51,251 nt of DNA from the NCBI GenBank assembly GCA_021732845.1, contig JAKFUF010000052.1, forward strand, positions 1 to 51,251, in the 5' to 3' direction. The position numbers were made by a program, and so were the translations under genes. Below, in pieces: positions 13,314 to 16,463 of the stretch. Within the stretch, counting starts at the first letter, position 1. Each line of letters begins with the position of its first letter. This stretch comes from Planctomycetaceae bacterium. GTDB taxonomy: Bacteria > Planctomycetota > Planctomycetia > Planctomycetales > Planctomycetaceae. Under the pieces are notes generated by a model. That model did not search any database and was not told where the DNA came from. It saw only the letters and a list, made by a program, of their open reading frames with translations.

Positions 13314-15257
13314 CTACTCCGTCTCGAACTCATGCCGGAATTCGTTAAACTTGAGATATTCCCAGTGCCGGTAGAGCGGGGTCGAGGTGACAAGATCCGC
13401 GTGTGCACCGCGGGCGGCAAGGCGGCCCTTGTGGAGCATCAGGATCTCGTCACAGCGACGGATCGTGGTCAGCCGTTGCGGCAGGTAGATCACTGTCCGC
13501 TTGGAGGCGATCTTCTTGTACGCCTCGTCCAGCAGCGCCTTCGTTTCGTCGTCGATCACGTCGGTCGGTTCCTGCAACACCAGCAGGGCGGGCTTGCGGA
13601 GGATGGCCCGCGTGAGGCTCAGGCGGTAACTCTGCCCGGCGTCCAATTGTTCGCCGTGTTCACCGATGACCGTCTCGTACCCCTGAGTCAGCTTGGAGAT
13701 GAAGTGATGGGCCTGGGCGATTTTGGCCGCCTCCATCACCTCGGTCAAAGTGTACTTTCCACCAGCCGCGATGTTCTCGGCAATGGTCCCGGTGAGGAAC
13801 GGTTCGCGCCCGCTCACCAGAATCACATGCATCCGCAGCGACTCCAGCGTGACCCAGGTGATCTCTTCGCCATCGAACAGAATGCGACCAGAGTGCGGTT
13901 CGATGAACCGCGGCAGCAGCGAGGCGAACGCTTCGGCTTCGAGTGGGTCCGTGGAGACAATGGCATACTGTTTTCCGGCCGCCAGCTTGGCGGTGAAGCG
14001 ATCCAGCAGGGTGCGACGCCCGTGCAGGCTGTAGCCGACGGATTCCAGCTCGATCGCCCGCTCCAGCGGCGGCAGAAACTTCGCGCCGACGACCTGCTCC
14101 ACTTCCGGCGGGATGTCGAGCCACGTTTGCACCGTGGCAAACGCCTGGCGGGTTTGTCCATGATCCACGCTCAAATCCCACAGGCGTTGCAGCGGCGGCC
14201 AGGCGGCGGCGATCGTGCAGGCCATCAGCAGGGCGATTTGCGAGGGCACGGCTCCGAAGGTGAAGGCCGAAGTCACGCTCCGCCAGCCTGTCAGAAACAA
14301 TGCTCCAGCGATGCACACGGTCACCAGCAGATGGACGACCGCACGGTAGCGGGCTCCCGCACGCAGGCCACTGGCGGTGAGATCCTGGAACCGCTCGAGG
14401 TATTTTTCAAATTGGGCCTGGGCCTGCGCCTCCATCCCGAAGTTCTTGACCAGCTTGGTTTTGGTCAGGCTTTCAGAGAGCAGCCGCAGGTCCCGTTCAG
14501 CCAGCGCGACAGACAATTGCCGCGCGGTATCGGATTTTTCCCGCATGACCTGCGCGAGCCACCAGCAGCCACCCAGCGGCATGAGACAGATGATCGTCAG
14601 CAAAGGATCAATGCATAGGATCAACAGCAGGAGCAGCGTGAGCCGCAGGGGGTCGCGGCCGAGGACATCGAGCCACGTGTAGACGCCGGTGCGAATTCTC
14701 TCGGCTTCGGTGGTGAACAACTGGAACGCGAGAGGGCTGGCTTTGCCTTCGAGATCGGACGGCCCCAGGCGCAACACCTGCTTGTGGATGGACTGCCGCG
14801 TTTCGGTGGCGACTTCGAGCGCCCGCTTCAAGAATCCGCGCCTTGCCCGCGATTCCGCCAGGAGCCGCAACAATTGCAGGCCGGCCAGCAGCAGAACGAG
14901 CGTGCTCAGCGCTCCCGCGTTGTTGCGGAGCGGCGGAAAGCCTTTCCAGGCGGCGATCAAGGGCCGCGCCCACAGGTAATTGCGGTTGTCCCACAGGGCT
15001 CGCAGCAAGCCAGCGTCAGCCTGCGCGCCCGTCGGCACCGACTGGCCGAACAGTTGCTCGAACTTCGCCCCATCCGCCGGCGCGACCGTGACCGGGCCAT
15101 GGTCCAGGATCAACGCCAAAAGCACCGCCAGCAGGAGGAGCTGAGCCACCAGCAGCAGCGAGGCAAAGGCGTACCACAAGGTCGCCATCAGCGACCGGCG
15201 CTTGAAGAATTCGGAGAGGGGCAACTGGCGGTCGAAAGGATGGACCGTGGTAGACAT
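13314..15257 (-). CDS. ABC exporter half-transporter with degenerate nucleotide-binding domain
   Basis: 647 residues from the ATG at 15257 (a TTG 18 bases upstream is an alternative). The N-terminal part has six hydrophobic segments in the type IV ABC exporter arrangement (about 30-52, 115-134, 205-224, 224-240, 305-325, 340-355). The C-terminal part, from about 395, aligns in order with an ABC ATPase, yet every nucleotide-contacting motif is altered: Walker A is replaced by AIVSTDPLEAEAF with no GK[ST]; the Q-loop reads ILVSGREPFLTGTIAENI; the signature is LDAGQ instead of LSGGQ; Walker B is LLVLQEP with Gln for Asp; the H-loop is YLPQRLTT with Gln for His. No frameshift is present, so it is an intact, probably ATP-inactive protein. 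An ABC-2 permease gene lies upstream on the same strand. Confidence 0.88.
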   Translation of the reverse strand: MSTTVHPFDRQLPLSEFFKRRSLMATLWYAFASLLLVAQLLLLAVLLALILDHGPVTVAPADGAKFEQLFGQSVPTGAQADAGLLRALWDNRNYLWARPLIAAWKGFPPLRNNAGALSTLVLLLAGLQLLRLLAESRARRGFLKRALEVATETRQSIHKQVLRLGPSDLEGKASPLAFQLFTTEAERIRTGVYTWLDVLGRDPLRLTLLLLLILCIDPLLTIICLMPLGGCWWLAQVMREKSDTARQLSVALAERDLRLLSESLTKTKLVKNFGMEAQAQAQFEKYLERFQDLTASGLRAGARYRAVVHLLVTVCIAGALFLTGWRSVTSAFTFGAVPSQIALLMACTIAAAWPPLQRLWDLSVDHGQTRQAFATVQTWLDIPPEVEQVVGAKFLPPLERAIELESVGYSLHGRRTLLDRFTAKLAAGKQYAIVSTDPLEAEAFASLLPRFIEPHSGRILFDGEEITWVTLESLRMHVILVSGREPFLTGTIAENIAAGGKYTLTEVMEAAKIAQAHHFISKLTQGYETVIGEHGEQLDAGQSYRLSLTRAILRKPALLVLQEPTDVIDDETKALLDEAYKKIASKRTVIYLPQRLTTIRRCDEILMLHKGRLAARGAHADLVTSTPLYRHWEYLKFNEFRHEFETE

Positions 15258-15388
15258 GGGAGGTTCCGGTGACAACTGTCACAATGCCCCGATGACAAAC
15301 GCCCCCAGCGACCAGGCGGTCACCCCCATGGCACGATGTTCAATGGAACAGAACTCCGTCCGCTCCAACCCACTGGAAATCAAGCCCC

Positions 15389-15470
15389 AATGACCAATGT
15401 GACAGGGGCCAGATTCTTCGGTCAATCGGCGTCGCTCAATCTTCCATTGGTCATTGATTCATTGGTCATT
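15389..15470. repeat. Short inverted and direct repeat, AATGACCAATG family
   Basis: AATGACCAATG at 15389-15399 is the reverse complement of two direct copies of CATTGGTCATT at 15445-15455 and 15460-15470. It occupies the 228-base spacer between the ABC-2 permease and the ABC exporter-like gene. The second copy lets two alternative hairpins form. No coding frame is seen. Confidence 0.6.
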
Positions 15471-15485
15471 GCGTCATTTTTTGGT

Positions 15486-16463
15486 CTACGCCAGATCTCG
15501 GTCTTCGAACAGGATGAACGACAACAGCACGGCGAACGCGCAATAGCACACGCTATAGAGCGCTGCGTACGCCAGATAGTCGAGATTGACCTGCGTCCCG
15601 TTGGAGATTGAACCTTCAACGGTAAACGAACTCAGCGCGGGCAGCACCGCGGCGATGAGCCGCGCCATGAACTGCACGGGCTCCAGATTTTGCACGCTGA
15701 CACTGACCAGGTTCGGGGTCAGGCGGCCAACAATGAAGATGGCGAAACAGGAAACCATGTTGACAACCATCGGCGTGCGGGTCGAAATCGCCACGCTGAT
15801 GGACGAGAGCACGCTGATTTCCATGAACATCAGCATGATTGCCGGGATGATCAGGATGACTTCGTTACGGGCATCGATCGGAGTGACGGTGGTGGACGAT
15901 TCGCGGGCATCATAGCCCACCTTATAGAACACCATCACGAGGAAGATGAGCGCCAGGGGCACCATCAGCATCAACGAAGAGGTGAGCACCCCCAGGTATT
16001 TGCCCACGATGAACTGCCGCCGGTTGATCGGCTTGGAGAGCAGTGTCATCGCGGTCTTGCCTTCGATTTCGTCCGCCACGCTCGTGCTGGAGGTCCAGAT
16101 CGCCAGCAGCAGGCCGCAAAACAGGATCGTCGCCAGACCGCATTCCTTCGTCATCTTCACGTCTTCGCCGAACATGAAGAACGGCCAGACCGTGTTCAAC
16201 GCCAGGAGGAACAGCGCCGCCAGCATCGCCATCCAGAAGACCGGCTGCCGTGTGGCTTCTTTCACTGTTGCCCGGGCGATGACACCAGTGCGCGTCAGAT
16301 ACAAAACAGCGATCAGCAGCGCGGTCAGCAGCGAGCTGGCCGCGATCAGCGGAGCGATGTCTTTATGAGTCAGAATGAAGGGAATCTGCTTGAGCGCCGC
16401 CATCAACTGCTCGAAAGCAGTCTGGTCAGAGCCGGCGGCGGCAAACATCAACAACGAACTCAT
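15486..16463 (-). CDS. ABC-2 type transporter permease
   Basis: 325 residues from the ATG at 16463, which has AAGGGG 6 bases upstream; the longer open frame adds a non-hydrophobic 38-residue tail and is disfavoured. About six membrane segments are visible, beginning PLIAASSLLTALLIAVLYL and MLAALFLLALNTVWPFFMF. The segment SVADEIEGKTAMTLLSKPIN followed by RRQFIVGKYLGV is the characteristic cytoplasmic loop of ABC-2 permeases, which contacts the ATPase. Substrate unknown. No gene for a normal ABC ATPase is adjacent; the only ABC-like ATPase nearby is the degenerate one at 13314-15257. If this permease works as a transporter its ATPase must be encoded elsewhere. Confidence 0.88.
   Translation of the reverse strand: MSSLLMFAAAGSDQTAFEQLMAALKQIPFILTHKDIAPLIAASSLLTALLIAVLYLTRTGVIARATVKEATRQPVFWMAMLAALFLLALNTVWPFFMFGEDVKMTKECGLATILFCGLLLAIWTSSTSVADEIEGKTAMTLLSKPINRRQFIVGKYLGVLTSSLMLMVPLALIFLVMVFYKVGYDARESSTTVTPIDARNEVILIIPAIMLMFMEISVLSSISVAISTRTPMVVNMVSCFAIFIVGRLTPNLVSVSVQNLEPVQFMARLIAAVLPALSSFTVEGSISNGTQVNLDYLAYAALYSVCYCAFAVLLSFILFEDRDLA

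Follow-up and report, generated by a model that had tools for sequence, protein, structure and literature searches.

An old, conserved pseudo-ATPase family of ABC exporters in planctomycetes with an ABC-2 permease as conserved gene partner

The window, which is the whole stretch of 51,251 nucleotides analysed from a Planctomycetaceae bacterium, contains two neighbouring genes of ABC transporter type in the same orientation (Table 1). One encodes half of a type IV ABC exporter with a transmembrane domain (TMD) and a degenerate nucleotide-binding domain (NBD), hereafter called the pseudo-exporter; the other one, directly upstream, encodes an ABC-2 permease. The copies of CATTGGTCATTG in the stretch between both genes are located at 15388-15471 in both orientations, and the same sequence was found nowhere else in the window and in 0 of 100 shuffles. 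Due to the 228-base gap with its repeats, co-transcription of the two genes is uncertain in the window. Promoter-like sites (2 vs 1.2 expected) and terminator-like sites (6 vs 3.6 expected) were uninformative, and searches of the window for tRNAs and Rfam families resulted in no matches.

Table 1. Positions of the pseudo-exporter, its altered ATP-site motifs and the neighbouring features. Locations without a prefix refer to the window; those with an L number refer to other loci.
Feature	Location	Strand	Remarks
Pseudo-exporter gene	13314..15257	-	647 aa; type IV ABC exporter half, TMD and degenerate NBD
Replaced Walker A, residues 435-442	13932..13955	-	Alignment with canonical exporters
Replaced Q-loop Gln, G483	13809..13811	-	Alignment
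Changed signature, residues 538-542	13632..13646	-	LDAGQ for LSGGQ; alignment
Walker B region, residues 559-564	13566..13583	-	Asp to Gln, Glu kept, then Pro
Replaced H-loop His, Q594	13476..13478	-	Alignment
Stretch between permease and pseudo-exporter genes, 228 bases	15258..15485	-	Holds CATTGGTCATTG three times
ABC-2 permease gene	15486..16463	-	325 aa, predicted NosY-like fold; PF12679; directly upstream, same direction
Acylphosphatase examples	L081:6458-6742, L064:4166-4429, L068:8917-9201 and others	Same as permease
HD_4 examples	L094:922-1596, L092:3634-4221, L082:7295-8023 and others	Same as pseudo-exporter

The reading frame of the pseudo-exporter is intact and runs on the minus strand from an ATG at 15257 to a stop codon ending at 13314. 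Pfam assigned both domains that characterize the type IV ABC exporter fold, ABC_membrane (PF00664, 39.2 bits, cut-off 28) for the TMD and ABC_tran (PF00005, 40.1 bits, cut-off 25) for the NBD; the latter match begins at profile position 29, leaving the Walker A portion of the profile unaligned. An AlphaFold2 model based on an alignment of 58 rows (pLDDT 90.3, pTM 0.82) contains six long TMD helices (residues 20-52, 113-167, 173-216, 218-265, 276-328 and 339-380). The model matched CmABCB1 (3wmg; Z 31.6, rmsd 3.9, 570 residues), TmrA (Z 31.2) and MsbA (7ph2; Z 30.5, rmsd 3.6, 566 residues), and the NBD matched 5eum_B (Z 29.8, rmsd 2.1, 246 residues). Domain order and the predicted fold of TMD and NBD are the same as in the type IV exporters MsbA, Sav1866 and P-glycoprotein. 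In contrast to these proteins, the pseudo-exporter lacks the motifs for ATP binding and hydrolysis with the exception of the Walker B glutamate.

The motif positions were read from an alignment with canonical exporters. Here, the Walker A consensus GxxGxGK[ST] is replaced by S435-T-D-P438-L-E440-A441-E442 and the A-loop tyrosine by L411. In the signature, L538-D-A-G-Q542, the serine is changed to D539 and the first glycine to A540, while the last two residues are kept. The Walker B aspartate is replaced by Q562 and the adjacent glutamate survives as E563, together with the D-loop aspartate (D569) and the arginine following the H-loop (R595). The set of motifs found in ATP-driven ABC transporters (Walker A, Walker B Asp, Q-loop, signature and H-loop) is therefore missing from the pseudo-exporter. 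In the model, the helix after strand 430-435, which normally begins at the Walker A lysine, is predicted to start at residue 438, three residues ahead of the lysine position, so that, judged by secondary structure, the helix appears to have taken up the phosphate loop. A preliminary description of this DNA had reported a full-length six-helix domain and an NBD scaffold without frameshift or stop, as well as changes in Walker A, Q-loop, signature, Walker B Asp and H-loop His. The intact frame, the Pfam matches and the AlphaFold2 model confirm the former and the alignment the latter; the observation is stronger than stated there, where the A-loop change was not listed.

Searches of open-licence papers in PubMed Central returned nothing on this pseudo-exporter family. 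Within a set of 59 relatives, 57 matched the pseudo-exporter at an E-value of 1e-30 or better, the weakest of these including two canonical exporters (G039 and G045). Extended to the order, the family alignment matched 168 of 170 genomes at 1e-60. According to our reading of the table, the scores split in two, with 158 of the 170 species at 1e-120 or better and 12 genomes with a weaker or absent match (G063, G064, G087, G091, G096, G117, G118, G125, G140, G178, G181 and G185). Two of the latter (G091 and G118) carry a truncated piece of the pseudo-exporter adjoining the permease at a contig end, and G117, which is 99% complete, is devoid of both the pseudo-exporter and the permease. All but one of the 80 named loci that were kept are planctomycete by record title (79/80), the remaining one being titled only 'bacterium'.

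Removal of rows with identical last 250 residues reduced their number from 163 to 114. Among 97 distinct orthologs of the same family, neither the Walker A lysine (0/97; Ala in 59, Pro in 17) nor the Q-loop glutamine (0/97; Gly in 68, Ala in 20) was found in a single case. The signature serine and the first glycine are each present in four orthologs, the Walker B aspartate in three (Glu in 71, Gln in 13) and the H-loop histidine in two. A loose signature pattern occurs somewhere in the C-terminal part of the G006 protein, in which the aligned signature reads LSSTQ. The same losses across 97 distinct orthologs exclude chance, and local decay in one genome was ruled out by the shared motif loss.

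Selection on the gene was analyzed by dN/dS (NG86) in 23 within-genus pairs, using stop-to-stop frames, several of which were saturated at synonymous sites; values ranged from 0.03 to 0.15 in 21 same-family pairs, with 0.08 for the f3 pair and 0.335 for the f2 pair. We count this last value against our best explanation. The NBD had a lower dN/dS than the TMD in 19 of the 21 pairs giving both values. The mean entropy over the 97 orthologs was 1.44 bits for the NBD and 2.44 bits for the TMD, and reached 2.33 bits at seven former ATP-contact positions. These seven positions had 2.52 bits in 27 degenerate rows compared to 0.28 bits in 24 canonical exporters of related genomes, at a similar mean for the whole NBD (1.65 vs 1.53 bits). 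No other part of the protein is as conserved as the NBD, and within this domain the former active site ranks with the least conserved regions. With an unconstrained ATP site inside the most conserved domain, this family parts the structural role of an NBD from its motor role. Normal motifs in close homologs or relaxed selection with dN/dS near 1, the two outcomes held in the preliminary description to speak against a pseudo-ATPase, were both absent, since the Walker A lysine is missing from all 97 same-family orthologs and the dN/dS values are far below 1. Judged from the sequences, the proposed pseudo-ATPase is almost certainly real, conserved and under purifying selection.

All phylogenetic trees were quick trees with SH-aLRT values, without bootstrap or AU test. 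In a tree of 51 rows (10 from f1, 17 further degenerate ones and 24 canonical ones), the 27 degenerate exporters were split from the 24 canonical ones on one branch (SH-aLRT 100), and the same one-branch split was obtained after masking 46 motif columns. The canonical set comprises 20 exporters picked among the matches in the 59 relatives and four others, not all exporters of these genomes, and is an imperfect control, with Asp in place of the catalytic Glu in 4 of 24 and no His in 3 of 24. In the first tree, which omitted three partial rows and drew on a subset of the f1 rows (42 used), the families f1, f2, f3, f4 and f14 each formed one clade, as expected under vertical descent. Family f2 was not monophyletic in the second tree, where G055 and G042 stood apart on long or open branches; f2_G055 and f6_G041 are both on long branches.

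The degree of motif loss differs between the families. The 17 rows from other families include the two canonical exporters G039 and G045; among the remaining 15 rows, eight still have the Lys, six the Gln and six the His. The catalytic Glu is kept in 27 of 27 degenerate rows, and in 24 of them the Walker B Asp has been exchanged for Glu too. From this pattern we infer an order of loss in which the Walker A glycines, the signature and the Walker B Asp apparently disappeared early, whereas some lines seem to have given up Lys, Gln and His at a later stage. The ATPase activity was most likely lost in an ancestor within the class. As relatives keeping Lys, Gln or His exist beside relatives without any of them, the order of loss is open to study.

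The model of the upstream permease matched NosY (Z 19.1, rmsd 4.1, 245 residues), which points to a NosY-like permease fold. A link between the two genes, already suspected in the preliminary description, is supported by the gene neighbourhood: the first set has the permease directly upstream at 41 of its 53 loci and the named loci, which share genomes with that set, at 67 of 80; all 41 and 67 of these permease genes are on the same strand as the pseudo-exporter. Carriers of this arrangement include Thalassoglobus neptunius KOR42 and Alienimonas chondri, two cultured, non-pathogenic relatives. It is the commonest neighbour of the pseudo-exporter, the next independent ones being found at 17 and 11 of the 53 loci. 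Five of the 13 named loci without adjoining permease have less than 400 bases upstream. The corresponding 12 loci of the first set include the two canonical exporters (G039 and G045) and four loci cut by an upstream contig end (G016, G035, G048 and G051), and in G048 the permease ortholog is located on another contig end. In five genomes (G002, G023, G030, G032 and G043), the ortholog is encoded away from the pseudo-exporter and the two genes are unlinked, and no ortholog was found in the drafts of G016, G019 and G035, which are at most 90% complete. Of the 248 genomes of the class, 240 were found to encode the permease, some of them from families without an adjoining pseudo-exporter, and hence the permease does not need the pseudo-exporter everywhere. 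The dependence looks one-way, as the pseudo-exporter goes with the permease and not the reverse.

In some families of the class with no adjoining pseudo-exporter, the permease frame is extended to about 490-630 codons (L239:8218-9828, L240:7220-8806, L299:5979-7448, L300:6992-8518 and L301:6225-7760). The first 240 or so residues showed no Pfam match in L239 and L240, the two frames that were scanned.

For alignment A2, 57 of the 80 named loci were used, L147 being omitted because the stretch held stops, and alignment A3 covers 45 of the 67 named permease loci. The permease contains a strongly conserved segment, EIEGKTAMTLLSKPINRRQF, which couples to an ATPase in relatives; its conservation, which we count against our best explanation, hints that the ATPase for the permease is supplied from elsewhere. 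Six query sequences, namely five soluble ATPases of this genome and a canonical NBD, were run by BLAST against the 41 + 67 = 108 permease-bearing loci, and no ATPase-like ORF was found less than 2.5 kb from the permease. Such ORFs are present in six of the 108 stretches at a distance of 2.5 to 7.5 kb (L079, L082, L107, L162, L165 and L191, with L107 and L165 from the same genome), and two more are located about 4 kb off in the separately fetched permease loci of G030 and G314. Near permease relatives of other classes, no ATPase was found in 12 loci. A home-made NBD profile scored true exporters poorly and was not relied on. The NosDFY system has a NosY subunit whose fold resembles the permease model; in contrast to the NosFY arrangement, with the ATPase subunit encoded beside the permease, no NosF-like gene adjoins the permease at the 108 loci searched by BLAST.

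Further genes recur at some of the loci. Upstream of the permease and on its strand, an acylphosphatase (PF00708) is encoded at 17 of the 41 first-set loci with the permease and at 24 of the 67 named ones. A gene for HD_4 (PF13328), an HD phosphohydrolase, comes immediately after the pseudo-exporter in the same orientation at 9 of the 53 first-set loci and at 19 of the 80 named ones. Both are absent from the window; elsewhere in the same genome, an HD_4 gene stands alone and the sole acylphosphatase match sits in a 782-codon frame. Because these genes recur, the permease may not be the sole partner. At four of the 12 loci from other classes of the phylum, the next gene scanned after the permease relative (L312:2287-3873, L313:5079-6640, L314:5008-6707 and L316:5022-6605) encodes a phosphoesterase, which is YfcE-like in L314 and of the Metallophos_2 type in the other three.

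The most economical reading is that an exporter scaffold was recruited as a permease subunit, following a logic similar to that of the sulfonylurea receptors. An exporter half would have lost its ATPase in an ancestor within the class and would then have been kept as a structural or regulatory subunit. The protein most likely forms a homodimer of the usual exporter shape; such a homodimer would contain no normal ATP site, and normal ATP binding by its NBDs has presumably been lost. It would work with the upstream NosY-like permease and could set its assembly, place or gating. Gene linkage makes a complex of this kind, with the pseudo-exporter as accessory subunit of the ABC-2 permease, reasonably probable. 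This explanation does not account for the invariant Glu563, which counts against it. SUR1 and SUR2 are exporter-fold proteins that regulate another membrane protein, and the comparison, based here on gene linkage, is meant as a works-like analogy without a claim of common ancestry of function. SUR binds nucleotides, whereas the site of the pseudo-exporter is lost and the proposed partner is a permease instead of a channel. A role of the pair in the envelope is a guess from the spread in the order. In any case, pseudo-exporter and permease constitute a concrete gene pair for tests in planctomycetes. It is conceivable, if rather doubtful, that the scaffold NBDs clamp or gate the NosY-like permease in a planctomycete-specific lipid or envelope machine, with a shared ATPase encoded in trans or with no need for ATP.

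The pseudo-exporter could also act alone as an ATP-independent homodimeric pore, scramblase or passive transporter, with the permease merely as a neighbour. A complete predicted TMD, an ATP site that is not maintained and the five genomes with unlinked genes fit such a pore, but the strong conservation of the NBD relative to the TMD would be odd for a free-running one and the permease is by far the commonest neighbour, which makes this option unlikely.

As a rule, ABC exporters can still bind ATP at a degenerate site. TM287/288, TmrAB and BmrCD likewise carry degenerate residues in an exporter NBD, and they keep ATP binding and one consensus site; in contrast, the pseudo-exporter has lost Walker A and signature too and has no adjoining partner half. 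A pairing with an active half, one of the options named in the preliminary description, would resemble TM287/288 or TmrAB, with the pseudo-exporter as the degenerate half of a heterodimer and the canonical exporter C43 or C22 as the other half. A single degenerate site is a common feature of exporters (PMC7756269), the genome encodes four ABC_membrane proteins at an E-value of 0.01, two of them canonical, and the model matches the fold of TmrA (Z 31.2). Nevertheless, no canonical exporter half was seen as conserved neighbour in the first-set and named loci, a place taken by the ABC-2 permease. Moreover, with the serine and the first glycine of the signature gone as well, the site of the partner would be damaged too, and from the ABC mechanism pairing with an active half would not restore an intact composite site. 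The proposed pairing was thus not borne out, and we consider it quite improbable.

A different nucleotide or ligand might bind at the remodelled site via Glu563, Pro564 and Arg595, which are invariant in 96 of the 97 ortholog rows (those with a residue there). Replacement residues with majorities of their own (P438 in 66, E440 in 62 and A441 in 59 of 97) would agree with such a site, but most other former contacts vary above the NBD average, so that this explanation is very unlikely. A decaying pseudogene, as the loss of nearly all catalytic motifs might suggest, has practically no probability and was rejected given dN/dS values of 0.03-0.15, an intact frame and the wide occurrence of the gene among the species of the order, most of which carry it.

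A second degenerate ABC exporter of 715 aa is encoded in the same genome (L347:141-2285; G000 contig C103). Its Walker A, Q-loop, signature Ser, Walker B Glu and H-loop His are changed, and the neighbouring genes in the same row are HlyD-like and outer-membrane-factor-like, names given by us without a family scan. It was matched at 1e-20 in 27 of the 40 genomes searched, its own included and with only a weak match in G012; several of its relatives keep Walker A.
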